DNA of 28,447 bases. Origin: Candidatus Lindowiibacteriota bacterium (lineage in GTDB: Bacteria; Lindowbacteria; 2-12-FULL-62-27). Location of the stretch: positions 1 through 28,447 of the forward strand of contig JAHFCY010000011.1 in the NCBI GenBank assembly GCA_023249255.1, in the 5' to 3' direction. Made by a program: the position numbers and the translations under genes. Shown piece by piece: positions 2,101 through 25,460 of this stretch. Under the pieces are notes generated by a model that saw only the letters and a list, made by a program, of their open reading frames with translations, ran no database searches and was not told the origin of the DNA. Every line of letters begins with the position of its first letter. The stretch's first letter is position 1.

Positions 2101-2744
2101 CGCCGGACTGTCTCCGGACTCAAAATGGCGCGAAGTCTTGCCATGATATTCGCCTTGTCGGCCTCCCACTTCGAATAATCACCGCTCGAATCGTCGATCA
2201 GCATCGTGTTCAATCGCGGGTCACGCAGGAGCGTGTCATGGTCGTCGCTTGCATACGTGTTTTCCATCTCCTCCCGCGAGACGAGATGGTCGTCTCCGCC
2301 TTCTTTCTTCGCGGCCTTGTGCCGCGCGACGTTTCTTTTCCAGCAGACGTCAAAGGGGCACAGTGCGTAGAGGACAAGCGAACGCTTGAGAATTTCCGGA
2401 GAGAAATTGGCGGTCAGTGAATGAACCATGTTCGGGCGGGAAAATTCGATAAAGATCACGCGGCTGTCGTCCTGCATTTTAAGGACGTCGCGGTTGACCT
2501 CTTTCAGAATTTCGTCCCAGATAGACTGGTCTGTGACTTTGTATCCGCCATCGGCCGTCCGCCGGCATCGTTTGTATTCCCGGTCGGTCTGAAAAATGTT
2601 CCAGAGTTTCGGGAAATCGTCGATGCGCGGCGTTTCCCGCGCCAGTCCCTCCCGCACGATCTGTTCAGACAGTGTCGGATAAAAGACTTCGGACTTTCCG
2701 ACGCCGGGAGTGCCGAGGAGAAAGAGGTGAAAACACCCGGCCAT
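2097..2744 (-). CDS. P-loop NTPase, small-molecule-kinase-like (215 aa)
   Basis: The protein opens MAGCFHLFLLGTPGVGKS, a Walker A at residues 11-18 directly after the first strand, as in adenylate/nucleoside kinases and simple AAA-like NTPases. A hydrophobic strand VIFIEFSR around residue 98 resembles the E-x-S/R site of nucleoside kinases. A basic segment CWKRNVARHKAAKK resembles a lid. No sensor or arginine-finger motifs typical of AAA+ proteins were seen. The ATG at 2744 overlaps the cytidine deaminase stop (TGATG), which rules out the longer in-frame reading that runs antisense-like through cdd. Its place among nucleoside salvage enzymes, with no other nucleoside kinase in the window, suggests a nucleoside or nucleotide kinase. 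That role is inference. Confidence 0.72.
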   Translation of the reverse strand: MAGCFHLFLLGTPGVGKSEVFYPTLSEQIVREGLARETPRIDDFPKLWNIFQTDREYKRCRRTADGGYKVTDQSIWDEILKEVNRDVLKMQDDSRVIFIEFSRPNMVHSLTANFSPEILKRSLVLYALCPFDVCWKRNVARHKAAKKEGGDDHLVSREEMENTYASDDHDTLLRDPRLNTMLIDDSSGDYSKWEADKANIMARLRAILSPETVRR

Positions 2745-3145
2745 CAGAGGTCCTCGGGGCCGAACGATCCGGGTAGAAGTTGTTCGACGGGTTCGATGCG
2801 GAATTTCCCGCGCGTGTTGGCCAGAATGACGGTGGTCGATTTTCCGAACTCGCGGATGACCTGCCGGCACGCGCCGCAGGGAGAGGCGAGATGTTCGGGA
2901 TGATAAACGATCGCGACGGCCCGGATCTTTTTTTCACCGGCCGACACGGCGCCGAAAATCGCTGATCGTTCGGCGCAGATCGTGAGGCCGTAGGAGGCGT
3001 TTTCGACGTTACAGCCGCCGTAAATCTTTCCGGAGCCGCCGAGCGCCGCGGCGCCGACGTGAAATTTCGAATAGGGCGCGTAGGCGTTTTTGCGCGCTTG
3101 TGACGCCGCTCGAATGAGTTTTTGAATTGTCCGGGCCGGAATCAT
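2744..3145 (-). CDS. cdd: Cytidine deaminase (homotetrameric type)
   Basis: Cdd hydrolyses (deoxy)cytidine to (deoxy)uridine in pyrimidine salvage. The 133-residue length matches the small tetrameric class. Zinc ligands and the catalytic Glu are visible as CAE (C58, E60) and PCGACRQ (C90, C93). YAPYSKFHVGAA and GCNVENASYGLTICAERSA are the family's substrate-site signatures. The ATG at 3145 follows GGAGAACGGC and overlaps the add stop as ATGA. The stop overlaps the next gene by one base. Its uridine product is a substrate of the pyrimidine-nucleoside phosphorylase further upstream in the same string. Confidence 0.95.
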   Translation of the reverse strand: MIPARTIQKLIRAASQARKNAYAPYSKFHVGAAALGGSGKIYGGCNVENASYGLTICAERSAIFGAVSAGEKKIRAVAIVYHPEHLASPCGACRQVIREFGKSTTVILANTRGKFRIEPVEQLLPGSFGPEDL

Positions 3146-4170
3146 GCCGTTCTCCTTTTTGGTCGAAACCATTTTTGATCGATGATCCGCCGGAGTCGCC
3201 GGCGGGTGGCGCGGTCGCAGAACGCTGCGTCGGCTGCGGCGCGAACCGACAGGGCGAGTTGGTCGTGTGTGAGACCGCACTGCGTCACCGCCGCCGTGTA
3301 TTCGTGCGAGAGCGTGATGTTGGAGACGCCGGGGTCGTCCGAGTTGATCGTGACGGAAACGCCGGCGTCGGCGAGTTGTTTCAATGGATGTGCGCGGAAA
3401 CTCGGGGCGCATCGCGTTTGGACGTTCGAGGTCGGACAGATTTCGAGAGTGACCTTTTGTTCGAGAAGCATGTCGAGAATACGGCGGTCATCCACGCTGT
3501 GGATGCCGTGGCCGATCCGCCGCGCGCCCATGCGCGTGAGAGCCTCGCGAACGCGTTCCGGCCCGCAGGCCTCGCCGGCGTGGACCGTGATCGGAATGCC
3601 GTATTTTTGCGCCAGACAAAACGCCGGATAGTGCGGCCTCGCCGGGTAGCGGACTTCGTCTCCGGCCAGATCGACGCCGACAACGCCGCGGCCGAGATGC
3701 CGTTTGGCGATTTCAACCGTGTCAATGGAACTTGCGGGCGATTCGGAACGATAACAACAGAGGATGAGCCGGACCGTGATGCCGAATCGTTTCTGTCCGC
3801 GGGCGATGCCGCGGAGAGCGCAGGCGACGGTGTCCTCCATCGAAAATTCGCGAGTAGCCTGAAGGATGGGGGCAAAGCGGGTTTCGAGGTAAATGATGTT
3901 GTCTTTCGCCGCGTCCTCACAGACTTCGTAGGCGATCCGCTCGACGGCTTCAGGCGATTTCAGAAAGTCGTAGAAGAAAAAGAATTTCTGAAGAAATTGG
4001 CCGAGGCTGCGGCAATTTCGGCCGACCCGGCAGTGGGGCGCAAGCCGGTCGAGGTCTCGTGTTGGCAGGGGAAATCGGCCCGCGACCGCCAGATCACGAA
4101 TCGTTTTGACCCGCACGGATCCGTCCAGATGCCGGTGAAGTTCGATCTTCGGAAATTTCCGGTAATCCAT
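3142..4170 (-). CDS. add: Adenosine deaminase
   Basis: Add converts (deoxy)adenosine to (deoxy)inosine, which the purine-nucleoside phosphorylase in this operon can cleave. The 342-residue TIM-barrel metalloenzyme shows all key sites: KIELHRHLDGS (H12, H14), TVHAGEA (H197, E200), RRIGHGIHS (H221) and INSDDPG (D278, D279). The ATG at 4170 is preferred because an AAGGG Shine-Dalgarno lies seven bases upstream. A GTG two codons earlier (4176) would overlap the mtnP stop as GTGA but sits too close to that Shine-Dalgarno. Related adenine and aminofutalosine deaminases share this fold, but the motif set and salvage context favour adenosine. Confidence 0.9.
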   Translation of the reverse strand: MDYRKFPKIELHRHLDGSVRVKTIRDLAVAGRFPLPTRDLDRLAPHCRVGRNCRSLGQFLQKFFFFYDFLKSPEAVERIAYEVCEDAAKDNIIYLETRFAPILQATREFSMEDTVACALRGIARGQKRFGITVRLILCCYRSESPASSIDTVEIAKRHLGRGVVGVDLAGDEVRYPARPHYPAFCLAQKYGIPITVHAGEACGPERVREALTRMGARRIGHGIHSVDDRRILDMLLEQKVTLEICPTSNVQTRCAPSFRAHPLKQLADAGVSVTINSDDPGVSNITLSHEYTAAVTQCGLTHDQLALSVRAAADAAFCDRATRRRLRRIIDQKWFRPKRRTA

Positions 4171-4172
4171 TC

Positions 4173-5102
4173 TCACTTCCCTTTTTTTGGTTTCTGCCGC
4201 CCGGCCGGTTGAAAATATTTGTCGAGCAGAAATGCGAGGCGCGCGCGCGTTTTTTTCGGAATCAGGTCAGGCGCGGTGACGATGGCGTTGGAAAGCGCCG
4301 AATGGCATGGGCAGGATTCACCGGGGTGTTTAGCGAGCGCGAGGATCACCGACCGCGCGATTTTTTTGGCGTTACCGGCGTTTTTCAAAAGAGTCTGGAC
4401 GACCATGTCAGCCGTAACGGCGTCGTGTCCCTCGCGCCAGCAGTCGTAGTCGGTCGGCAGCGCGCAGATCGCGTAACAAATTTCGGCTTCCCGCGCGAGT
4501 TTGGCCTCCGGCAGGGCGGTCATGCCGATGACCGATGCCCCCCACGAGCGGTGGAGATTCGATTCGGCTTTGGTCGAAAACTGGGGGCCTTCCATGACGA
4601 CGTACGTGCCGCCGCGGTGCGTGTTGAGTTTTTGCGCGCTCGACGCGTCGGCCAACATGTTCGAAAGCCGGCCGCAGAATGGATCAGCGAAGGCAACGTG
4701 CGCGACGACGCCGTCTCCAAAAAACGTGCTGGGCCTATGTCGTGTCCGGTCAATGAGCTGGTCAGGAATGACGATGTCGCGTCCCGGCACGATTTCCTCT
4801 TTGAGTGATCCGACGGCCGACAGCGACAGGATCCAACGAACTCCGAGCGATTTCAGCGCGCAGATGTTTGCCCGCGAGTTGACTTCAGTCGGCAAAATCC
4901 GATGCCCCCGTCCGTGCCGGGGCAAAAACGCGACGCGCAGTCCGCCGAGGCGTCCCACGCGGATCACGTCGGATGGCGGGCCGTAGGGTGTGTCGATTTC
5001 GACTTCCTGCAACTCCTCGACTCCCTCCATATCATAAATGCCGCTTCCGCCGATGACGCCGACGGCCGGTTCGGCGCCCGATTTTCCGATTTTTGGTTTC
5101 AT
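4173..5102 (-). CDS. mtnP: S-methyl-5'-thioadenosine phosphorylase
   Basis: The enzyme cleaves methylthioadenosine with phosphate to adenine and methylthioribose-1-phosphate, recycling the polyamine-pathway by-product. The 309-residue sequence has the phosphorylase signatures GGSGIYD, DTPYGPPSD, PRHGRGH, the ribose-site EGPQFST and GMTALPEAKLAREAEICYA. TDYDCW carries the Asp that selects 6-amino purines and separates MTA phosphorylases from hypoxanthine/guanine-specific PNPs. The ATG at 5102 lies three bases after the DUF3006 stop, with AAAGGGAAA upstream. The tail is Lys-rich (RQKPKKGK). It is the second phosphorylase of this superfamily in the string. The other, at 8972-9886, is the ordinary PNP. 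Confidence 0.93.
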   Translation of the reverse strand: MKPKIGKSGAEPAVGVIGGSGIYDMEGVEELQEVEIDTPYGPPSDVIRVGRLGGLRVAFLPRHGRGHRILPTEVNSRANICALKSLGVRWILSLSAVGSLKEEIVPGRDIVIPDQLIDRTRHRPSTFFGDGVVAHVAFADPFCGRLSNMLADASSAQKLNTHRGGTYVVMEGPQFSTKAESNLHRSWGASVIGMTALPEAKLAREAEICYAICALPTDYDCWREGHDAVTADMVVQTLLKNAGNAKKIARSVILALAKHPGESCPCHSALSNAIVTAPDLIPKKTRARLAFLLDKYFQPAGRQKPKKGK

Positions 5103-5105
5103 GAT

Positions 5106-5333
5106 TCAGGGTTTCCCTTTCTTGTCTTTGAGGTGTTTTCCGGCGAGCAGGTCGCGCTGAAGATCGGCGATCTCGTCGCGCCGTTTTTTCGTTTCCGTTT
5201 CGTCCACGACAATCTCGACGACAAGACCTTCCTTCGCGCCCGCGATGTATTTCGCCGGAATTTGAATCTGTCCGCCATCGTCGAACTCGATCACCGCGAT
5301 GCCCTCTTCAATCCGATCAATGACGCCTTTCAT
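5106..5333 (-). CDS. DUF3006 family small protein
   Basis: The 75-residue protein begins MKGVIDRIEEGIAVIEFDDG and continues IQIPAKYIAGAKEGLVVEI, the short beta-barrel pattern of DUF3006. A charged helix rich in Lys/Glu/Asp follows (TKKRRDEIADLQRDLL). DUF3006 proteins are often encoded beside nucleases or DNA-modifying proteins, but no biochemical role is established. The ATG at 5333 has a GGGGGG stretch seven bases upstream and is preferred to an in-frame TTG two codons earlier. It sits 31 bases after recJ and three bases before mtnP, so it is part of the operon. An accessory role for RecJ is possible but only inferred. Confidence 0.85.
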   Translation of the reverse strand: MKGVIDRIEEGIAVIEFDDGGQIQIPAKYIAGAKEGLVVEIVVDETETKKRRDEIADLQRDLLAGKHLKDKKGKP

Positions 5334-5364
5334 ATCCAATCCCCCCGTTGTATGGATGTTGTGA

Positions 5365-7659
5365 TCAACACCGAATGTCCTCCAGCATCATCTGAATGTC
5401 GACCCGCCCGTTCCATTCGTTTCTCGAAAGGTCAAAAATCAGATCGGCCTGCCGGCCAATCCGGTCTGCGACGCCGCCCATGCCCCATCCGACCGCTGTG
5501 ACCGTGCGCCGCGCGTCAGGACCGACACGGATCCGGAGATGTTTCCCGTCCTCGCCGATCTGCCGGCGCTCGCCGATCGGCGCTGCCGTCATGACGAATT
5601 TCGGAAACGGATTTCCCTTGCCGAACGGCTCAAGAACGGAAAGCGCGTCGAGCGTTGCAAGCGTCAAGTCTTCGAACTTGAGTTCCGCATCGGCCTCGAT
5701 TTGAGGCTCCGGCATATCGCGGAGCCGTCCGGCGACCACGCGTTTGATTTTTTCGAAAAATCCCACAATGTTTTCCGGCCGAATCGTCATTCCGACCGCC
5801 TGATGATGCCCGCCGAATTTTTCCAGAAGGTCGGCGCATTCTCCGACTGCTTCGACCATGTTCAGGGATTCGATCGACCGCGATGATCCCGTGCCTTTGC
5901 CGTCTTCGATCAGGACAATCAGCACCGGCCGCCCGGTCTCGTTTTTGATTCGGGACGCGACGATGCCCGTCACTCCTTGCGGGACGCCCTCGGCCGACAC
6001 ACAGATGATCCGGTCGCGTTCAAGATCGTTCTGGCCGGGCACCAGATCCATCAGCCGTTTGAAATTGTCCTTTACGAGTTGCTTGCGTTCCGTGTTCATC
6101 CGGACGATGCTCCCGGACAGTTCGCGCGCCTCGGATTTTGACGTCGCGATCAGAAGATCGAGCGCGGGGGTTGCGTCGCCGAGCCGGCCCGGCGCGTTGA
6201 GAAGCGGTCCGAGCAAAAACGCGATGTCACGGCCGGTCGGTGCGGAAAGTTCGACGGATTCGAGAAGAGCCTTGATCCCGAGCGGTGGCGCGTCGCGCAT
6301 GACGCGAAGACCTTCGGCGACGATCGCACGGTTTTCGTCCACCAGCGGCATCATGTCGGCCACCGCCGCCAGCGCCGCCAGCGGAACCAGCCTCTCATAA
6401 AACACGGACTGCTCCACGTTCTGGCGGTCCAACAGGCGGTGAAACACCTCGGCTGCGGCAACGGTGTCCGCCAGAGCCCGGTGTGCTCCCGTCAGCGGCA
6501 CGCCCAGTTCCGCCGCGACGGATGTGAGTTTCCGGCTGGCCAGTCCCGGCAGGGCGCCGCTGGCTACCGCCATGATGTCTTCGGTTGGATATGCCCACTC
6601 GACGCCAAGATTGCGTTTGAATTCCGCCGCGAGGAAATCGCGGTCGAACTCGACGTTGTAGGCAAGAACGAGAACGTCCGGCTCGGACAAAAATTTGATG
6701 AGACCGCGCAAAGCGATTTTTCGATCGATGCCCTTTTCCGCGAGTTCGGAGTCGGTAATCCCCGTGATGCGCGTGATTTCTTCGGAGACCGGAGCGGACG
6801 GCGCGGTCAGGCAGACATATTCATCGAGCCGGATACCGTTTCGATATTTGACCGCCGCGATTTCGATGACCTCGTCCTTGACGCGGTCAAGCCCCGTCGT
6901 TTCGACATCGAGGACGACAAGCGTGCGGTTGGCGAAAGGCGACCGCGCGGCAAACAGCGCCATCGCGAGTTTGAACGCGACGCCCGCGCCCGAGAGATGT
7001 TTGAAGGGATATGGTTCGCCCGGAATGCCCGGATGGAGGATTGCATGAGCCGCCGGAAGAAGAGGCGATCCATCCCCGGCTGTTTTATGCGTGTGATGGT
7101 CGGCGATGAGGACGTCCATGCCGCCTGCGTTCGCTTCCGCCACTCGATCGATTTCACAAATGCCGGTATCGACCGTGATGCCGAGCGTGAATCCGTCGCG
7201 GAGCGCCCGTGCCATGATGTCGGGATGAACGCCATATCCTTCCGCGCCGGCCGGAATGTGGGCATCGACCGTCGCTCCGAGCGCCCGAAGCGTCAGGATC
7301 AGGATCGCGGCGCCGGAGACGCCATCGGCGTCGCGGTCGCCGAACACAAAAATCTTTTCCTTGCGGTTAATCGCGCGCCGGATTCGAGCAAGCGCCTTCT
7401 CCATGTCGCGGAACAAAAACGGCGAATGCATCTGGTATTTGGATGGATGCAAAAATGTTTCAGCGTCTTTGGGCGCGCGAACGCCGCGGTTGACCAGAAG
7501 CCGAGCGACAATCGGGTGTAGATTGAGTTTGTCCGCCAGATCACGTTCGGCGTCGGCGTCTCCGGCCCGGATCATCCATTTGGATCTGGTCGGCGCTGTG
7601 GAAGGAACCTCGAGCAGCGCCGCAAGACGCCCCTGCTCCGGAGATTCCTGATCCATCAT
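5365..7659 (-). CDS. recJ: RecJ single-strand exonuclease with an inserted DnaQ-like (DEDDh) exonuclease domain
   Basis: RecJ degrades single-stranded DNA 5'-3' in recombination and repair. The 764-residue protein has the DHH core: DRDADG at about 108-113, VDTGI, DHHTH at 187-191, VADMMPL near 433-439 and LLNAPGRL. It also has the DHHA1 part with KFGGHHQAVGMTI near 614-626 and a C-terminal OB-like domain. Between the DHH motif and VADMMPL, about residues 245-410, lies a complete DEDDh exonuclease domain: DVETTG (D251, E253), AYNVEFD (N335, D339) and HRALAD (H393, D398). One uninterrupted frame covers both, and all expected metal ligands of both sites are present. The ATG at 7659 overlaps the pdp stop. 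A TTG at 7674 is an alternative start. I infer a dual-polarity nuclease feeding nucleotides to the salvage genes. Confidence 0.93.
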   Translation of the reverse strand: MMDQESPEQGRLAALLEVPSTAPTRSKWMIRAGDADAERDLADKLNLHPIVARLLVNRGVRAPKDAETFLHPSKYQMHSPFLFRDMEKALARIRRAINRKEKIFVFGDRDADGVSGAAILILTLRALGATVDAHIPAGAEGYGVHPDIMARALRDGFTLGITVDTGICEIDRVAEANAGGMDVLIADHHTHKTAGDGSPLLPAAHAILHPGIPGEPYPFKHLSGAGVAFKLAMALFAARSPFANRTLVVLDVETTGLDRVKDEVIEIAAVKYRNGIRLDEYVCLTAPSAPVSEEITRITGITDSELAEKGIDRKIALRGLIKFLSEPDVLVLAYNVEFDRDFLAAEFKRNLGVEWAYPTEDIMAVASGALPGLASRKLTSVAAELGVPLTGAHRALADTVAAAEVFHRLLDRQNVEQSVFYERLVPLAALAAVADMMPLVDENRAIVAEGLRVMRDAPPLGIKALLESVELSAPTGRDIAFLLGPLLNAPGRLGDATPALDLLIATSKSEARELSGSIVRMNTERKQLVKDNFKRLMDLVPGQNDLERDRIICVSAEGVPQGVTGIVASRIKNETGRPVLIVLIEDGKGTGSSRSIESLNMVEAVGECADLLEKFGGHHQAVGMTIRPENIVGFFEKIKRVVAGRLRDMPEPQIEADAELKFEDLTLATLDALSVLEPFGKGNPFPKFVMTAAPIGERRQIGEDGKHLRIRVGPDARRTVTAVGWGMGGVADRIGRQADLIFDLSRNEWNGRVDIQMMLEDIRC

Positions 7660-8975
7660 TTCAACACATCCCAAATCAATTTCCGTTTTTTCGGTTTTAC
7701 CGCGCCGATTTCCACGGTCGATAGAAAGCGCTCTCCGGCGCCGGACATCCGCGCGCGGTCGTTCGCATGAAAATATGCGATCGGCTCGCCTTTTTTCACG
7801 CGATCCCCAACTTTTTTCGCCAGCATGATGCCGGCGGCGTAATCGATCGGATCGGCCGATTTCGTCCGTCCAGCGCCCAACATGAGCGAAGCGACTCCGA
7901 TGTCGCGCGCCGCGAGTCTCTGAATCACGCCCGATTTTGGCGCTTTGATCGCGTCGACGTGTTTGGCCGACGGCAGGCGCGCCTGATCGTCAACCACGGA
8001 TGCGTCGCCGCCTTGCGCCGCGACCATTTCCGAAAATTTCTTTTTTGCCGCGCCGTTTCCGAGAACCTTCTCGATGGCCTTGCGTCCCTCCGCCGCCGAT
8101 TTCGCGGCGCCGGCAAGACTCAACATCTCGGCCCCGAATACGATGACCAGCTCCCGAAGGTCCGCCGGTCCGCCGCCGGACAGACATTCGATCGTCTCGC
8201 GGATTTCCAGCGCGTTACCGATGGCCAGTCCCAAGGGTTGATCCATGTCGGTGATGTAAGCCACCGCGCGGCGTCCCGATTTTTTGCAGATACCCAACAT
8301 TGCCTTCGCGAGGCGCTTTGAGCCGGCCATGTCCTGCATGAACGCGCCGTCGCCGGTTTTAACATCGAGCACGAGCGCCTCGGGTCCCGCCGAAAGTTTT
8401 TTCGAGAGGATGCTCGCCGCGATCAGCGGGATGCAGTCGACGGTGGCCGTGACGTCCCGGAGCGCGTACATTTTTTTGTCGGCCGGCGCGATCGTTTTCG
8501 TCTGGCCGATCATGGCGCATCCAACGCGTTCAACAGCGCTGATGAATTCATCTTTCGAAAGTTGTGTGCGAAATCCGGGAATCGATTCGAGTTTGTCCAG
8601 CGTCCCGCCGGTGTGGCCAAGCCCCCGGCCGGACATCATCGGCACGGGAACACCGCAGGCCGCAACTGCCGGCGCCAGCGGCAGGGAAACCTTGTCGCCG
8701 ACTCCTCCCGTCGAATGTTTGTCCACGCTTCGGACCTTGAACCGCCCCCGCAGGTCGATCAATTCGCCCGACCGCATCATCGTTTCGGTCAAAGCGGCCG
8801 TCTCGGCGTCGTCCATGCCGCGAAAAAAAATGGCCATCAACAGCGCCGACATCTGATAGTCGGGCAGGGTCCCGTCTGTGAAGCCATTCACCAGAAACGC
8901 GATCTCATCGTCGCCGAGCCGCGCGCCATTTCGTTTTTTGAAAATGAGTTCGTAGGGAAGATACGTCTTTGTCAT
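7656..8975 (-). CDS. pdp: Pyrimidine-nucleoside (thymidine) phosphorylase
   Basis: The enzyme cleaves thymidine, uridine or deoxyuridine with phosphate to the base plus (deoxy)ribose-1-phosphate. The 439-residue length is normal for DeoA/Pdp. The phosphate-binding segment DKHSTGGVGDK is at 85-95 and the full family signature, SGRGLGHTGGTLDKLESIPG, at 115-134. VLDVKTGDGAF follows, and a C-terminal PYNP domain with an IMLAKKVGDRVKKGEPI lipoyl-like hammerhead. The ATG at 8975 overlaps the PNP stop (ATGA) and the stop overlaps the recJ start. DeoA and Pdp cannot be separated firmly. The C-terminal domain and homology pattern are compatible with a broad-specificity Pdp. Confidence 0.93.
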   Translation of the reverse strand: MTKTYLPYELIFKKRNGARLGDDEIAFLVNGFTDGTLPDYQMSALLMAIFFRGMDDAETAALTETMMRSGELIDLRGRFKVRSVDKHSTGGVGDKVSLPLAPAVAACGVPVPMMSGRGLGHTGGTLDKLESIPGFRTQLSKDEFISAVERVGCAMIGQTKTIAPADKKMYALRDVTATVDCIPLIAASILSKKLSAGPEALVLDVKTGDGAFMQDMAGSKRLAKAMLGICKKSGRRAVAYITDMDQPLGLAIGNALEIRETIECLSGGGPADLRELVIVFGAEMLSLAGAAKSAAEGRKAIEKVLGNGAAKKKFSEMVAAQGGDASVVDDQARLPSAKHVDAIKAPKSGVIQRLAARDIGVASLMLGAGRTKSADPIDYAAGIMLAKKVGDRVKKGEPIAYFHANDRARMSGAGERFLSTVEIGAVKPKKRKLIWDVLK

Positions 8976-9886
8976 GCGCGCCGGTTCGAAGATCGGCCCT
9001 GCCGGGATGGCGTCGGCGTGACCGGATCGCCCGGAGTCGAATGCGTCCTATCCGGAAGGTCGACCGTCTTCAGAAGTTCGATGACGAGGCGTTGAAGTCC
9101 GTTGCCGGCGTTCCGGCCGGCTTCCATGACCTCCTCGTGGGACAGCGCGAATTTGGTTACGCCGGCGGCCATGTTCGAGATGAACGAGATCGACAGGCAC
9201 GTCATGCCCATGTGCCGTGCGGCCAGAACTTCCGGCACCGTCGACATGCCGACCGCGTCAGCGCCGAGTTTGCGGAGCATCCGGATCTCGGACGGCGTTT
9301 CGTAACTTGGACCCATGCATGCCGCGTAGACGCCTTCGTGGAGGCGAAGCTTGAGCTTCCGTCCGAGGCGCGCGGCCTGCGCGCGAAGATGGGGATCGTA
9401 GGCCGCGCTCATGTCGTAAAATCTCGACCCCAGCGCGTCCGGATTCGGGCCGCGCAGAGGATGGTCGCCCTGAAAATTCAGATGATCGCGGATGATCATG
9501 AAATCGCCGACCTTGTATTTTTTGTTGATCGCTCCGACCGCGTTCGACGTGATCAGCGTGTGCGCTCCCAACAGACGCATGAGCCGGATGCCGAACACGA
9601 CTTTGCTCATCGGATGTCCCTCGTAAAAATGCACCCGGCCCTGCATGGCGACCACGGGAATATTCGACAGCGTTCCGAAAACCAGATTGCCCGCGTGTCC
9701 CACGATTTTCGCCGTCGGAAAATCTGGAATATCCTTGAACGGAATCGCGTGCCGGCCCGCGATCGCGTCTGCCAGTCCGCCCAATCCCGATCCGAGAACG
9801 AGCGCGACGGCCGGTTTGAGCGTCACCGTGCGGCGGATAAACTGAAATGCGGGAATAAACTCGTTCATGCCCTGGCTTTCGCTCAT
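8972..9886 (-). CDS. punA: Purine-nucleoside phosphorylase (trimeric class)
   Basis: The enzyme cleaves (deoxy)inosine and (deoxy)guanosine to the base and (deoxy)ribose-1-phosphate. Phosphate-site residues are visible in GSGLGG (S33) and GRVHFYEGHP (H86). GPSYETPSE has the base-site Glu near 200, and ISNMAAG has the Asn (about 238) that marks 6-oxopurine-specific trimeric PNPs. Residues from about 278 on form a polar Pro/Ser/Arg-rich tail that looks disordered and extends beyond the usual end. The ATG at 9886 has AAGAGGCAGG upstream in the 19-base gap after uvrA. An ATG six codons later is possible. Together with Add it completes adenosine salvage to hypoxanthine. Confidence 0.93.
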   Translation of the reverse strand: MSESQGMNEFIPAFQFIRRTVTLKPAVALVLGSGLGGLADAIAGRHAIPFKDIPDFPTAKIVGHAGNLVFGTLSNIPVVAMQGRVHFYEGHPMSKVVFGIRLMRLLGAHTLITSNAVGAINKKYKVGDFMIIRDHLNFQGDHPLRGPNPDALGSRFYDMSAAYDPHLRAQAARLGRKLKLRLHEGVYAACMGPSYETPSEIRMLRKLGADAVGMSTVPEVLAARHMGMTCLSISFISNMAAGVTKFALSHEEVMEAGRNAGNGLQRLVIELLKTVDLPDRTHSTPGDPVTPTPSRQGRSSNRRA

Positions 9887-12863: not shown

Positions 12864-12940
12864 ATTTGCGGGGGAAATCGGGGGTTGGAAAGAATCTGTT
12901 GCGTTCCCTCTTCCGGCTTGTTAGCGTTGGCGTACACTAG

Positions 12941-13157
12941 GAAGGAGGTGGTCCCAGCGTGAGTATAAGACATTTGACCAGTGAGGTGCCTGACCGTTAG
13001 GCGTTTTGCCTGACTTGTGGCAACCGGTTGGGTCCCGTCCAGCAACATATCGGGACGGCGCCTGACGGAATCCCAACAGGTTACCGGACCCGGTAAGCCC
13101 CGCGGCATAGGTCACCGCGGGCGGCCTCACTGGCCGTCAGCGCTTCCGGGTTTTTTT
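12941..13157 (+). ncRNA. Structured RNA / candidate attenuator leader upstream of the lolA-like/RND operon
   Basis: This stretch has many complementary arms on the plus strand. Fold A: closing helix 12978-12986 with 13125-13133 (9 perfect pairs, CCAGTGAGG/CCTCACTGG) enclosing four hairpins. They are 12996-13014 (7 pairs), 13027-13077 (GTTGGG/CCCAAC with an inner GTCCCG/CGGGAC), 13081-13096 and 13099-13121 (CCCGCGG/CCGCGGG). Fold B: a long stem 13053-13068 with 13134-13147 (14 pairs, two bulged Cs) three bases before seven Ts (13151-13157). Folds A and B cross and should exclude each other, the logic of a terminator/antiterminator. It resembles no riboswitch class I can recall (B12, SAM, TPP, FMN, T-box and c-di-GMP were compared by eye). 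A free-standing small RNA is the alternative. Confidence 0.6.
12959..13000 (+). CDS. Possible 13-codon leader peptide with extended Shine-Dalgarno
   Basis: GTG at 12959 opens a frame of 13 codons, reading MSIRHLTSEVPDR, that ends at TAG (12998-13000). Upstream, AAGGAGGTGGTCC (12942-12954) can pair with the 3' end of 16S rRNA over 13 contiguous positions, one of them G-U, and lies at a suitable distance. The reading frame covers the 5' arm of the closing helix of the structured RNA, so ribosomes here would prevent fold A. No run of a single regulatory codon is visible, so a classical amino-acid attenuator is not supported. Too short to judge by coding statistics. Confidence 0.4.
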   Translation: MSIRHLTSEVPDR

Positions 13158-13234
13158 ATTGCCCTTTTGATATGTCATCGGCGGTATCGTCGGTCTTGTC
13201 GCCGCTGATCTCCCTATTGTACGGTTAGACTTTC

Positions 13235-14038
13235 ATGAGGACGTTCGGGATTGTGTGGATTTTTTGTCTGGTTCTGTCATGCGCCGTTCGGGCAACGGCG
13301 GATGCGCTCGATACGACAGCGGTTCGAGCGCTCATGGAAAAGGTCGACCGGAATTTGTATCCGGACGACGAGATCGACGAAGTGTCGCTCATTCTCATTC
13401 ATCCCAACGGACAGCAGAGGCAGTGGCGAATCAGGCAGTATTACCAGCGCGCGTATGAAAACGGCATGGGCGCAATTCTTCTGCGCTTTGTTGACCCGAC
13501 CGATCTTCACGGCACGACGCTTGTCAGCGTGAACCAGCCCGGCGGCGAAAACAATCAGTGGCTGTATCTGCCGGCGTTTCGGATGCCGCAGTTTCTCGCG
13601 GACAGCCGCAAGAGCGATTACGTTTTCGGAAGCGATCTGACGTTTGAGGATTTTACGCCTTGCATTCTCGACGAGTACGACTACGCGTTCGTCCGGGAGG
13701 AAATCTTCGCCGAGCGGCATGCGATCGTCATCCGAAAAACGCCGACCGCCCCGAAACTCCAAAGCCGCGTCAAGTACGCATATCAGATGCTGTGGGTCGA
13801 TCCCGACCGAAACATCTTTCTTCGCGCCGACTTTTTTGATTCGATCGGACAGATGTACAAAACGGTGACGTGGGGGGATTTTTATCAGCCGGACCGCATC
13901 CACTGGCGGGCCAGGCGCGTCGCGTTTTTCAGCCCACTCCGGCCGCACTGGACCCAACTGTCGGTTGAAGACATCCAGCTGAACCGCGGCCTGCCGGCCG
14001 AATTTTTCTCCGAACGAAATCTTACGAACATCCGATGA
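13235..14038 (+). CDS. Outer membrane lipoprotein-sorting protein (LolA-like), periplasmic partner of the RND protein
   Basis: The 267-residue protein starts with a clear signal peptide (MRTFGIVWIFCLVLSCAVRATA, cleavage probably after residue 22). Its body matches the LolA-like family that accompanies MMPL/RND exporters: LILIHPNGQQRQWRIRQYYQ, LLRFVDPTDLHGTTLVSV, NNQWLYLPAFRM, SDYVFGSDLTFEDF and YKTVTWGDFYQ. Such proteins have a half-barrel that binds lipids or lipid-like groups and probably hand substrate to or from the transporter. Its stop overlaps the RND start (ATGA). The ATG at 13235 is the first start after an in-frame stop at 13226 but lacks a visible Shine-Dalgarno. Transcription likely passes through the structured RNA upstream, though a separate weak promoter cannot be excluded. 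Confidence 0.85.
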   Translation: MRTFGIVWIFCLVLSCAVRATADALDTTAVRALMEKVDRNLYPDDEIDEVSLILIHPNGQQRQWRIRQYYQRAYENGMGAILLRFVDPTDLHGTTLVSVNQPGGENNQWLYLPAFRMPQFLADSRKSDYVFGSDLTFEDFTPCILDEYDYAFVREEIFAERHAIVIRKTPTAPKLQSRVKYAYQMLWVDPDRNIFLRADFFDSIGQMYKTVTWGDFYQPDRIHWRARRVAFFSPLRPHWTQLSVEDIQLNRGLPAEFFSERNLTNIR

Positions 14039-16794
14039 GCCGCGCCTATATCCGATTTCTCGACCGCCGTCTGGTCTGGGTCGCGCTTGTGTTGACTCTC
14101 ATTACGCTGGTGTGCGGCGCCGGTGTCTGGAAACTTCTTGGCGGAGACCTTCTGCCGCCAACCGCCGACAGCCTCCGGCACCTGAAACTCCGGATCGATA
14201 CGTCCGACCGGCAGTTTTTGGCCGCGCATGATCCGGATCTTCAAGCCTATCAGGAAAGCACGCGGATTTTCGGCGACGACCGGTTCCTTGTCGCGGTTCT
14301 CGAGTTCGACAACGTTTTCACGCCCGACCACCTCGCCCTGATTTCCCGGGCGTGTTCCGCTCTCTCCCGCCTGCCGGGCGCCAAGCGCGTCACGAGCGTC
14401 ACGCACGAACCGCTTTATTCCGGCGCCGCCCAAAGTCTCGCCAACGCGCAAATCGCAACGCGTCTGCCGAAAACGCAGGCTGAGGCTGACCGTATCCGCG
14501 ATCAGGTCCTGTCCGATTCAACGTTCGTCCGAAATCTCGTTTCGGCTGACGGCCGATACGCCGCTATTTATGTCCGCACGTGGCCGCATGTGCGCGGACC
14601 GGAACTCGATTTTCTCGTCCGGCGATTCAAGCAGACGCTTCAGCGGGAAGCGCGCAACGTGCCGGTTCTGTTCGCCGGCAACCACATCCAGACCATCGAA
14701 CTTCACGAGGCGACCCTGCGGGAGATGAAACGCCTCCTGCCGGTGACGGCCGTGATCATGGCGATCGTCCTCGCGCTCATTTTTCACTCCTGGCGCGGCG
14801 TGGGCCTGCCGCTGGTTACGATGGCGCTGTCGCTGATCTGGACGTTCGGCGTGCTTGGATGGGCCGGTGTCTCTCTCACGCCGATCGACGTGATCCTCCC
14901 GACGCTTCTCATGACGCTCAGCATCACCTACTCGCTTCAATTCATCACCCGATATTATCAAGTGATGGAGGAGGCCCGGCCTACCGACAAAGTTTCCTGC
15001 TGTGAGCTGGCCGCCGAAGATTCTTTTTTTGCGCTGTTTATCGCCCAGTTCACCACCATCATCGGCACGGCGTCGCTCTGCTGGACTGACATCCCGGCCA
15101 TTTTTCAATTCGGCGCCATCTCCGCGCTCGGGACGGTGTTCACTGCGGTCCTCGTCTACACGTTTCTGCCCGCCGCCCAGCTGGTGCTCCCGATGCGTCC
15201 GCGCCGCCGCCGGCCCGAAACGTCCTGGATGGAACGCATCAGCCGCCGTGCCCAGGGATTCTATCTTCGCAAGGAAATGACGCTTTCTGTGGCGTTCGGC
15301 GTCACCGCCGTTCTGGCGCTCGGATTGTTCGCCCTGAAAGTCGAAAACGATCCGAAAACGTTTTTCAAATCCGATTCGCCGATTCGTCAGGCGTTTCAGA
15401 CGATCGAAGACAAACTCGGGGGCGCGCTCAGCATCAGCGTTGTGGTCGACGGCGGCCGGCCCGGCGCGATGAAAGATCCGGAGACGCTGCGGGCCATCGA
15501 ATCGCTTCAAACATTCGCCGAACAGCAGTCTCCCGTCCTCAAAACGATTTCTTTTGTCGACACCGTCAAACGTCTGAACCGCGCCGTCCATGGCGACTCG
15601 GCCGCGTTCGAAACCGTTCCGGAAAGTTCTGATGAGATTTCCCAGCTGTTGCTTCTGGCCGCGATCGGAGATGATCCGGCGAATATCGACCGGCTGGTCG
15701 ATTACGATTACCAGCATGGCCGGCTGGAAATTCGTGTGAAAAACGTCGACTCCAAATCTCTCCTCGCCCTTGCGTCTGATTTGCAGTCCCACGTTGACCG
15801 GACGTGGCCGCGTGGATTGCATGGAACCGTGACCGGCGATCATTACATGACGTGCCGGGCCAACTCGGCGATTCTGACGGGACAGGTTCGGGGATTTTTA
15901 GGGACGGCCATCGTCGTGTTTCTGGTGATGTGGATCTGTTTCGGCTCGCCGCAGATCGGGTTGATCGCGATGATTCCGAACGTCGCACCGATTCTGTCGG
16001 TGCTCGGCCTCATGGGGTATTTCGGCGTGAGAATTGATGTCGGCACGGCGCTTCTGGCGTCGGTTGCCCTCGGCATCGCGCTCGACGACACGATCCATTT
16101 CATCATTCACTACATTCGAAACATACAATCTCATCCTCATGGCCGCCGGGCCATTCACAACGTCGTCGGCGGTGTGGGCCGCGCCATGGTGTTCAGCAAC
16201 GTCGCGCTGGCGGTCGGATTTGCGGTCCTCATCCTTTCGACTTTTCAGCCGGTGCGACTCTTCGGTCTCTTCATGCTCGTGTCGATGATCATTGCCTGTT
16301 TCGACGATTTCGTGATGATGCCGGCGCTGATCGGATGGATGCCGATGGTCGGCGTCTGGGAGCAGTGGCGGATCAAATTCAAGTCGGACGTGACGCAGAT
16401 ACCGCTTTTTGCCCGGATGTCGCCGGCCGACATCAAAAAAGTCGTGTCGATGGGTCGGATGCTGACGCTCCCGGCGAACGCGCGGTTGATGGAGGAAGGA
16501 GAGCCGGGCGCGGAGCTGTTTCTGATTCTTGAAGGATCGGTCACGGTCCGAAAAAACAAGGTTGTCGTCACGATGCTCGGCCGGGGTGAGACGGTCGGCG
16601 AGATGGGACTCATCAGCGACCATCCGCGAAGCGCTGACGTTTCAGCTGACAAGGAAACGACCGTGCTTGCGTTCGGCTATGAAGCCCTGGAGCGATTGGA
16701 GCGCCGCTACCCGCGCCTTGCCGTTCGCCTCCTGCACAATCTCTCCACGATCCTCAGCCGCCGCCTTGCCGCCACAACGGAGTTGTTGAAGTAG
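14035..16794 (+). CDS. RND/MMPL-family exporter with C-terminal cyclic-nucleotide-binding domain
   Basis: The 919-residue inner-membrane protein has the duplicated MMPL layout. There is a TM helix at about 13-33, a periplasmic loop to 232, TM helices 235-385 and another single TM at 415-434. A second periplasmic loop runs to 615 and the last TM cluster spans 618-770. The second half has LGIALDDTIHF (about 679-689) with acidic residues usual for proton coupling. The matching place in the first half, LMTLSITYSLQF (292-303), has none. Residues 787-910 form a Crp-like cNMP-binding domain. Its phosphate cassette GEMGLISDHPRSADVSA (855-871) keeps the Glu and Arg used to bind cAMP/cGMP in Crp-type domains. 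It overlaps the LolA-like gene and ends convergently near the PLD-like gene. Inferred role: export of a lipid or hydrophobic substrate, gated by a nucleotide. Confidence 0.9.
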   Translation: MSRAYIRFLDRRLVWVALVLTLITLVCGAGVWKLLGGDLLPPTADSLRHLKLRIDTSDRQFLAAHDPDLQAYQESTRIFGDDRFLVAVLEFDNVFTPDHLALISRACSALSRLPGAKRVTSVTHEPLYSGAAQSLANAQIATRLPKTQAEADRIRDQVLSDSTFVRNLVSADGRYAAIYVRTWPHVRGPELDFLVRRFKQTLQREARNVPVLFAGNHIQTIELHEATLREMKRLLPVTAVIMAIVLALIFHSWRGVGLPLVTMALSLIWTFGVLGWAGVSLTPIDVILPTLLMTLSITYSLQFITRYYQVMEEARPTDKVSCCELAAEDSFFALFIAQFTTIIGTASLCWTDIPAIFQFGAISALGTVFTAVLVYTFLPAAQLVLPMRPRRRRPETSWMERISRRAQGFYLRKEMTLSVAFGVTAVLALGLFALKVENDPKTFFKSDSPIRQAFQTIEDKLGGALSISVVVDGGRPGAMKDPETLRAIESLQTFAEQQSPVLKTISFVDTVKRLNRAVHGDSAAFETVPESSDEISQLLLLAAIGDDPANIDRLVDYDYQHGRLEIRVKNVDSKSLLALASDLQSHVDRTWPRGLHGTVTGDHYMTCRANSAILTGQVRGFLGTAIVVFLVMWICFGSPQIGLIAMIPNVAPILSVLGLMGYFGVRIDVGTALLASVALGIALDDTIHFIIHYIRNIQSHPHGRRAIHNVVGGVGRAMVFSNVALAVGFAVLILSTFQPVRLFGLFMLVSMIIACFDDFVMMPALIGWMPMVGVWEQWRIKFKSDVTQIPLFARMSPADIKKVVSMGRMLTLPANARLMEEGEPGAELFLILEGSVTVRKNKVVVTMLGRGETVGEMGLISDHPRSADVSADKETTVLAFGYEALERLERRYPRLAVRLLHNLSTILSRRLAATTELLK

Positions 16795-24281: not shown

Positions 24282-25460
24282 TCAGATATCAGATAAAAAA
24301 CTTCGGGCGCCGGTCCAGCCGTCAATTCCAAAATTTTCCGAAATCGTCTGACCGATGTCCCAGAATCCCTGCCGGATGCCGAGGTCGACCGGCCGGTCCA
24401 TCGCCGAATGCCAGGCGAGAAGCGGCACGATCTCGCGGGAGTGATCGGTGGATGGCGTGGTTGGATCATTGCCGTGATCGGCGGAAATGAGAACGAGATC
24501 GGTCGGCGAAAGTTTTCGCAGAAAAGCGTCCAGCCGGCTGTCGAATTCGACCAGCGCGCTCGCAAACCCGGGGACGTCGTTTCTGTGGCCGTAGAGCATG
24601 TCGAAATCGACCAGATTCAAAAACGCAAGACCGGTGAACGGCCGGTCGGCCATCTCCGTCAGGCGATCCATGCCGATAGCGTTGCTTTCCATGCCGACGT
24701 GGTCTGTCACGCCGCGTCCGGCGAAGATATCCTGAATTTTTCCGATGCTGATCACGTCGAGGCCGGCGCGTTTCATCCGGTCGAGGAGCGTCTCCCTCGG
24801 CGGCTCGACCGAATAGTCGTGGCGGTTCGGCGTGCGCTTGAACTGCCCGGTCGCCCCGATGAACGGCCGCGCGATGACGCGGCCGACACGGTGTCTGCCG
24901 GTCAACAGTCCCCGGGCGATTTTACAGATGCGGTAGAGTTCCTGGAGTGGGATGATCTGCTCGTGCGCGGCGATTTGAAAGACGCTGTCAGCGGACGTGT
25001 AGACGATGGGACTGCCGGTTTTGACATGCTTTTCGCCAAGTTCCTTGATGATTTCTGTTCCCGAGGCCGCTTTGTTCCCGATGGTTTTCCGGCCGATCGC
25101 GCGTTCAAAGGGCTCAATGACTTCCGGCGGAAATCCCTTTGGATACGTTGGAAAATTTTCCTCGACAATCACGCCGGCCATTTCCCAGTGGCCGCTGGTC
25201 GTGTCCTTGTTCGACGATTTCTCGACCATCACGCCAAAGGCGCCGGCCCGCACACCGGCGGGATCAACGCCCAAAATCCTGCCCGTCCGGCCCAGGCCCA
25301 TCCGTTCAAGCGCCGGCAGACGCAGTCCGCCGACCGCCTTTGACAGATTTCCCAGTGTGTCGGATCCCACGTCACCGAATGCCGCCGCATCCGGCGCTTC
25401 GCCGCACCCCACACCGTCCATGACAATCAAAAAGATCCGCTGAAATCTCGCCGGTTTCAT
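24282..25460 (-). CDS. deoB: Phosphopentomutase
   Basis: DeoB interconverts (deoxy)ribose-1-phosphate and -5-phosphate, the step that links the nucleoside phosphorylases of this window to central metabolism. The 392-residue protein has the alkaline-phosphatase-superfamily metal motifs VMDGVG (D15), NLVDFDMLYGHRNDVPG, ISADHGNDP and TDHSREIVP. The mutase segment KDTTSGHWE at 85-93 contains the phosphorylatable Thr. YTSADSVFQIAAHE and GRVIARPFIG are characteristic of DeoB. The ATG at 25460 has no Shine-Dalgarno. The 61 bases upstream are a low-complexity AGGCAG/TAGTC-rich stretch. It is probably cotranscribed from the TolB-N-like gene or has its own weak promoter. It is separated from the other salvage genes by more than 11 kb. 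Confidence 0.95.
   Translation of the reverse strand: MKPARFQRIFLIVMDGVGCGEAPDAAAFGDVGSDTLGNLSKAVGGLRLPALERMGLGRTGRILGVDPAGVRAGAFGVMVEKSSNKDTTSGHWEMAGVIVEENFPTYPKGFPPEVIEPFERAIGRKTIGNKAASGTEIIKELGEKHVKTGSPIVYTSADSVFQIAAHEQIIPLQELYRICKIARGLLTGRHRVGRVIARPFIGATGQFKRTPNRHDYSVEPPRETLLDRMKRAGLDVISIGKIQDIFAGRGVTDHVGMESNAIGMDRLTEMADRPFTGLAFLNLVDFDMLYGHRNDVPGFASALVEFDSRLDAFLRKLSPTDLVLISADHGNDPTTPSTDHSREIVPLLAWHSAMDRPVDLGIRQGFWDIGQTISENFGIDGWTGARSFLSDI

Follow-up and report, generated by a model that had tools for sequence, protein, structure and literature searches.

A predicted Ms_IGR-5-like small-RNA gene with a conserved micro-ORF in a Lindowbacteria genome

In the 28,447-nucleotide stretch of a Candidatus Lindowiibacteriota bacterium contig that was analyzed here (the window), a structured intergenic region lies between a divergent uvrA gene on one side and, on the other, a LolA-like gene with an MMPL/RND-type transporter gene (14035-16794, + strand) behind it. 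According to Pfam, the transporter carries a C-terminal cyclic-nucleotide-binding domain and is paired with the LolA-like protein. The initial annotation took the region for an RNA with two mutually exclusive folds that controls the lolA-like/RND operon. The locus thus raises the question of whether this RNA is a leader of the downstream genes or a gene of its own, and how it might work. In other parts of the window (2665-9886 and 24282-25460, − strand), nucleoside-salvage enzymes were recognized by eye from the translations, namely cytidine/adenosine deaminase-like proteins, phosphorylases, and a phosphopentomutase-like protein; the PNP family alone was tested, with Pfam.

Alternative folds and neighboring genes

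The initial observation was confirmed in part, and its interpretation was partly supported. A real structured RNA with a terminator end is present, and both the three copies of GCCTGAC (12988, 13008, and 13060) and the run of seven Ts (13151-13157) were found again. The first proposed helix (helix A; CCAGTGAGG, 12978-12986, with CCTCACTGG, 13125-13133) does consist of nine perfect pairs, but it is not conserved beyond one of the two other genomes of the same family in the sample: in the comparison with homologues it was kept in G001 and gone in G002 and in the homologue G049. A perfect 9-bp inverted repeat arises in ∼7% of mononucleotide shuffles. The competing helix B (13053-13068/13134-13147) likewise exists in the window, with 14 pairs, small bulges, and −20.4 kcal/mol, but in both G001 and G002 its energy shrinks to about −5 kcal/mol, and it is kept in no relative. 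Both helices are absent from the minimum free energy fold (−91.7), which contains the terminator and two helices described below, P2 and P3. The fold energy of the region was unremarkable, 1.3 standard deviations better than that of shuffled sequences (z = −1.33), and 15 of 200 shuffles were as good. A terminator/antiterminator or riboswitch leader was rejected, because neither the exclusive folds nor an association with a downstream gene is conserved.

The proposed control of the lolA-like/RND operon did not hold up either. In G001 and G002, which both have the RNA, no lolA, RND, or uvrA gene lies within ∼5 kb of it. Flanking ORFs, picked mechanically at 79 loci, vary from locus to locus in their length, spacing, and orientation, and in many cases the next ORF lies on the other strand. 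Since the neighbors are not conserved among the homologues, the RNA is not the leader of the lolA/RND operon.

Relation to Ms_IGR-5, gene boundaries, and distribution

In Rfam scans no known riboswitch matched, as the initial annotation had supposed, and there were zero matches at gathering thresholds. The RNA is nevertheless not as undescribed as it had looked: a focused Rfam scan gave a match to RF02471 (Ms_IGR-5) at 12934-13159 with 40.4 bits and an E value of 8.4e-8, below the gathering cut-off of 45 bits. RF02471 is listed in Rfam as an orphan non-coding sRNA of actinobacteria. The alignment is full-length (model positions 1-184), and the conserved 5′ block GGAAGGAGGUGGUCC is identical in the window. 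Two homologues score above the cut-off (G049, 52.3 bits; L183, 58.9 bits). By sequence comparison, the window RNA is a distant relative of Ms_IGR-5, linked to it through the homologues that pass, and not a formal member. Common to both are the 5′ motif, GUGAGGUG..CUG, similar helices, a terminator, and stand-alone transcription, and the Ms_IGR-5 loci of mycobacteria and streptomycetes carry the same kind of short ORF as the window. The window RNA differs in its host, which is outside the actinobacterial range, in a bulged P2, and in a branched terminator. No mention of an ORF in Ms_IGR-5 was found in the open-access literature searched; an earlier report elsewhere is possible.

Genomic contexts differ both within the family and across phyla, in keeping with a stand-alone sRNA gene such as Ms_IGR-5. 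A putative promoter precedes the RNA on the + strand, with a −35 element TTGCGT (12899-12904), a 17-nt spacer, and a −10 element TAGCGT (12922-12927). The predicted +1, A12934, lies 7 nt past the −10 hexamer on a conserved ACAC, seven bases upstream of position 12941, where the initial annotation had let the RNA begin. A simple consensus promoter scan made no call at this site. Most actinobacterial homologues have the same layout in front of them (TTG, spacer of ∼17 nt, TAnnnT, and ACAC where the RNA begins). At the 3′ end, the minimum free energy fold contains a branched intrinsic terminator with a T7 tail (13089-13157, +; 13089-13098 paired with 13142-13150), and most homologues have a terminal hairpin 3′ of P2. 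Published mapping in Streptomyces avermitilis lists MS_IGR-5 among the sRNA transcription units (PMC8780764), RNA-seq supports Ms_IGR-5 in Streptomyces lividans (PMC8079986), and an sRNA overlaps IGR-5 in Mycobacterium smegmatis (PMC10454040). Because of the variable context, the recurring promoter layout, the terminal hairpin, and these published sRNA data, we regard the RNA, as far as sequence can tell, as an independent small-RNA gene (12934-13157, +) whose promoter and terminator, both predicted, are its own.

A DNA search of relatives located the RNA in G001 (78% identity) and G002, and a search with RF02471 added copies in G041, G049, and G086. A pattern scan of GTDB genomes gave at least 79 true loci and one match (L089) that was rejected as a chance hit. 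Most loci are from Actinomycetota; the others carry the metagenome-assembled genome labels Sumerlaeota, Deltaproteobacteria, Nitrospinae, Zixibacteria, Rokubacteria, Spirochaetia, and Acidobacteriota. The Acidobacteriota copy resembles the acidimicrobial ones and could come from a mislabeled bin. A covariance model built from ten diverse sequences recovered 66 of 67 sources, missing the chance match alone, and found the RNA in 15 of 290 broadly sampled relative genomes at E < 1e-9. In the phylum of G246, a second covariance model found the RNA in 110 of the 298 genomes sampled, 109 of which have a single copy. The sole two-copy genome of this sample (G441, loci L255 and L256) has 7% contamination and may represent two organisms. 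Since the family is absent from many genomes, even within its main phylum, it is not generally essential.

Other known RNAs were compared as well. The consensus of CC2171 (RF01867), an orphan sRNA of Caulobacter, opens with GAAAGGAGGUGAUCC, a full-length Shine-Dalgarno (SD) sequence, and then GUG, as in the window. A CC2171 model search of the window's own genome (G000) gave no match. Sub-threshold CC2171 matches that carry an EV-type ORF were seen at two loci, L201 (∼1462-1637, −; LNSDRSGLVEVAFP) and L203 (∼1496-1660, +; VSSDRCGSVEVASLS). CC2171 and the Ms_IGR-5-like families may be related; the link is unproven. A further full-length SD, at L210 (∼1510, −), precedes a 15-codon ORF of another kind (LSSHSIIWGASGKTC) and a terminator; this may be one more RNA built along similar lines. 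The raiA RNA (RF03072), a further candidate, is likewise a widespread, structured bacterial RNA of ∼210 nt that is not a riboswitch, but it differs in sequence and fold; it had no match in G000 or the homologous loci and only chance-level matches elsewhere. Upstream-ORF attenuators such as the E. coli topAI leader also place a short ORF in a structured RNA whose fold translation would alter. They act on the gene directly downstream, whereas the window RNA family has no conserved downstream gene.

Shine-Dalgarno sequence, micro-ORF, and conserved helices

The initial annotation missed the main feature of the RNA, a 13-nt SD complementary to 16S rRNA followed by a conserved micro-ORF. The SD (AAGGAGGTGGTCC, 12942-12954, +) is complementary to the 16S 3′ tail GGATCACCTCCTT over its full length with one G-U pair. 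The duplex has −23.6 kcal/mol compared with −12.2 kcal/mol for an ordinary SD, and a complement of 12-13 nt to the 16S rRNA 3′ end is present in every main-set homologue. As the fragmented assembly of the window's own genome yielded no 16S 3′ end, the anti-SD was taken from, and confirmed in, the 16S end of G001. Apart from this locus, the 12-mer AGGAGGTGRTCC is found in G000 at a single unrelated site, on C91.

The ORF comprises 13 codons from GTG to TAG (MSIRHLTSEVPDR, 12959-13000, +). All 85 loci have an NTG start codon in frame with the stop codon and at SD spacing, compared with 2 and 3 loci for the other frames. All 80 distinct sequences are free of in-frame stops up to that codon (22 and 2 in the other frames), and all end in a stop, TAG in 58, TGA in 12, and TAA in 10; the 22 departures from TAG are thus TGA or TAA and never a sense codon. 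The pattern used to find the loci specified neither start nor stop. ORF length is 11-15 codons, mostly 12, and the start position shifts with the length of the loop around it while staying in frame. Start codons are TTG (38), ATG (29), GTG (7), and CTG (6). For high-GC genomes in general, such a TTG-rich set is unusual. Most loci found by the models, where the exact motif was not required, have the same ORF, a few with an ATT, ATC, or ATA start. Judged by this comparison, the ORF is under selection, which is shown by the homologues; part of the start and stop conservation could be structural, as both codons lie in or beside conserved helices.

The peptide itself is weakly conserved, with all three positions of its N-terminal codons free to vary. 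An internal SD-like motif, GAGGTG (12983-12988, +), lies 9 nt ahead of the stop codon. Its distance from the last sense codon is thus that of an SD, which suggests a positional role. The motif was fixed by the locus-search pattern and is still present in most model-found loci. In one subgroup (L225, L239, L249, L253, and L258), GAGGTG and the kept ORF are in different frames, some of the starts being ATT or ATC; the start and the TAG stop are retained while the peptide is quite different. Start and stop being kept while the peptide differs, selection appears to act on translation to the stop and less on the peptide.

Three helices accompany the ORF, each with a strand in it or overlapping its ends. 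P1 (12950-12953 with 12976-12979, +) is formed by the 3′ portion of the SD and bases of the ORF and leaves the start codon looped out. Its last three pairs are formed in 74 to 84 of 85 loci, and one SD position shows a G-C to A-U exchange (Fisher p = 2.5e-7, not corrected for phylogeny). P2 (12985-12992 with 13077-13085, +) has the form GGUGxCUG with CAGnYCACC and shows compensatory changes, 96% of the cells being paired in 66 sequences. P3 (12995-13002 with 13060-13067, +) holds the stop codon in its 5′ strand and pairs it and the last codon with a downstream strand; seven of its eight pairs show changes on both sides in the same 66 sequences. Between P3 and P2 lies a conserved linker (GAATCCCAA, 13068-13076, +) with near-invariant A, T, and C columns.

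Conservation was scored in two alignments. In a plain MAFFT alignment of ten diverse sequences (A2), which is the cleaner test and in which the 3′ strand of P2 in G049 is one T short, 85.7% of the cells were paired, compared with 75% in shuffles and 24-44% when slid. In the alignment of 66 sequences (A3), which uses the true sequences but was fitted to the structure, the values were 87.3, 80, and 28-44%, with 98 double-change cells compared with 35 in shuffles; the shuffles ignore relatedness. MAFFT with RNAalifold on 20 sequences had yielded just three pairs, none of them informative, owing to poor alignment near the P2 bulge, and the later alignment was model-fitted to a hand-defined structure. 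By this comparison P1, P2, and P3 are shown to be conserved.

A proposed translation-gated RNA and competing explanations

The architecture of SD, ORF, helices, and terminator is well supported. Because the helices overlap the ORF, a translating ribosome must open them, and this favors a regulator gated by translation. We infer translation and gating, and consider it probable, though far from certain, that the fold, stability, or pairing partners of the sRNA hinge on whether it captures a ribosome and has its micro-ORF translated. Without a ribosome the RNA would be folded. A ribosome initiating at the strong SD would open P1, then P2 and P3, and reach the stop, and this would free CAGnYCACC and the conserved AAUCCC linker. 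The second SD-like motif, GAGGUG, located at an SD-like distance behind the final sense codon, could hold the terminating ribosome.

The main rival is a ribosome decoy, in which the over-strong SD is a sink for the 30S subunit or its anti-SD and the ORF merely lets captured ribosomes leave. The 13-bp complementarity to 16S rRNA (−23.6 kcal/mol), the weakly conserved peptide, and the second SD-like motif ahead of the stop all fit such a sink. However, to titrate ribosomes a single-copy gene would have to be expressed very highly, P1 masks part of the SD, and a sink does not need the elaborate P2 and P3, so that we consider the decoy unlikely. Still less probable is a small mRNA for a functional peptide of 12-15 residues: start, frame, and stop are indeed kept in every main-set locus and a C-terminal T-x-E-V-x-x-R is frequent, but the N-terminal codons are free to vary, and E-V is encoded by the RNA-level GAGGTG and is gone in the frame-shifted subgroup (LLKTSGGDCR, LGDHCGGGSS). 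That the RNA is purely structural and the ORF a by-product of conserved RNA motifs would agree with a start codon in the P1 loop and a stop codon within P3; it is very improbable given that all 22 non-TAG variants among the 80 distinct sequences are still stops and that the start tracks loop length, keeping the frame. A cis-acting attenuator or riboswitch leader of the lolA-like/RND operon is hardly tenable, for although the RNA is on the same strand, has its terminator 77 nt upstream of the start codon of the lolA-like gene, and has complementary alternative helices in the window, those helices are not conserved, homologues have other and often convergent neighbors, and the RNA is an independent unit by experiment in Streptomyces (PMC8780764).

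Extending the translation-gated reading, we tentatively suggest a cross-phylum RNA class, including Ms_IGR-5 and perhaps CC2171, in which the micro-ORF, and not its peptide, would read the state of ribosomes or initiation. The over-strong SD and the mostly non-AUG starts would capture a ribosome, the second SD would hold it, and the switch in fold would be the signal. Of interest is an ORF under clear selection, as judged from its homologues, in an RNA that was until now an orphan known from actinobacteria alone and that is here traced over many phyla. This gives a testable idea of what the RNA may sense, namely ribosomes, in the tractable M. smegmatis and Streptomyces, and mycobacterial ribosome-profiling data for such a test already exist.
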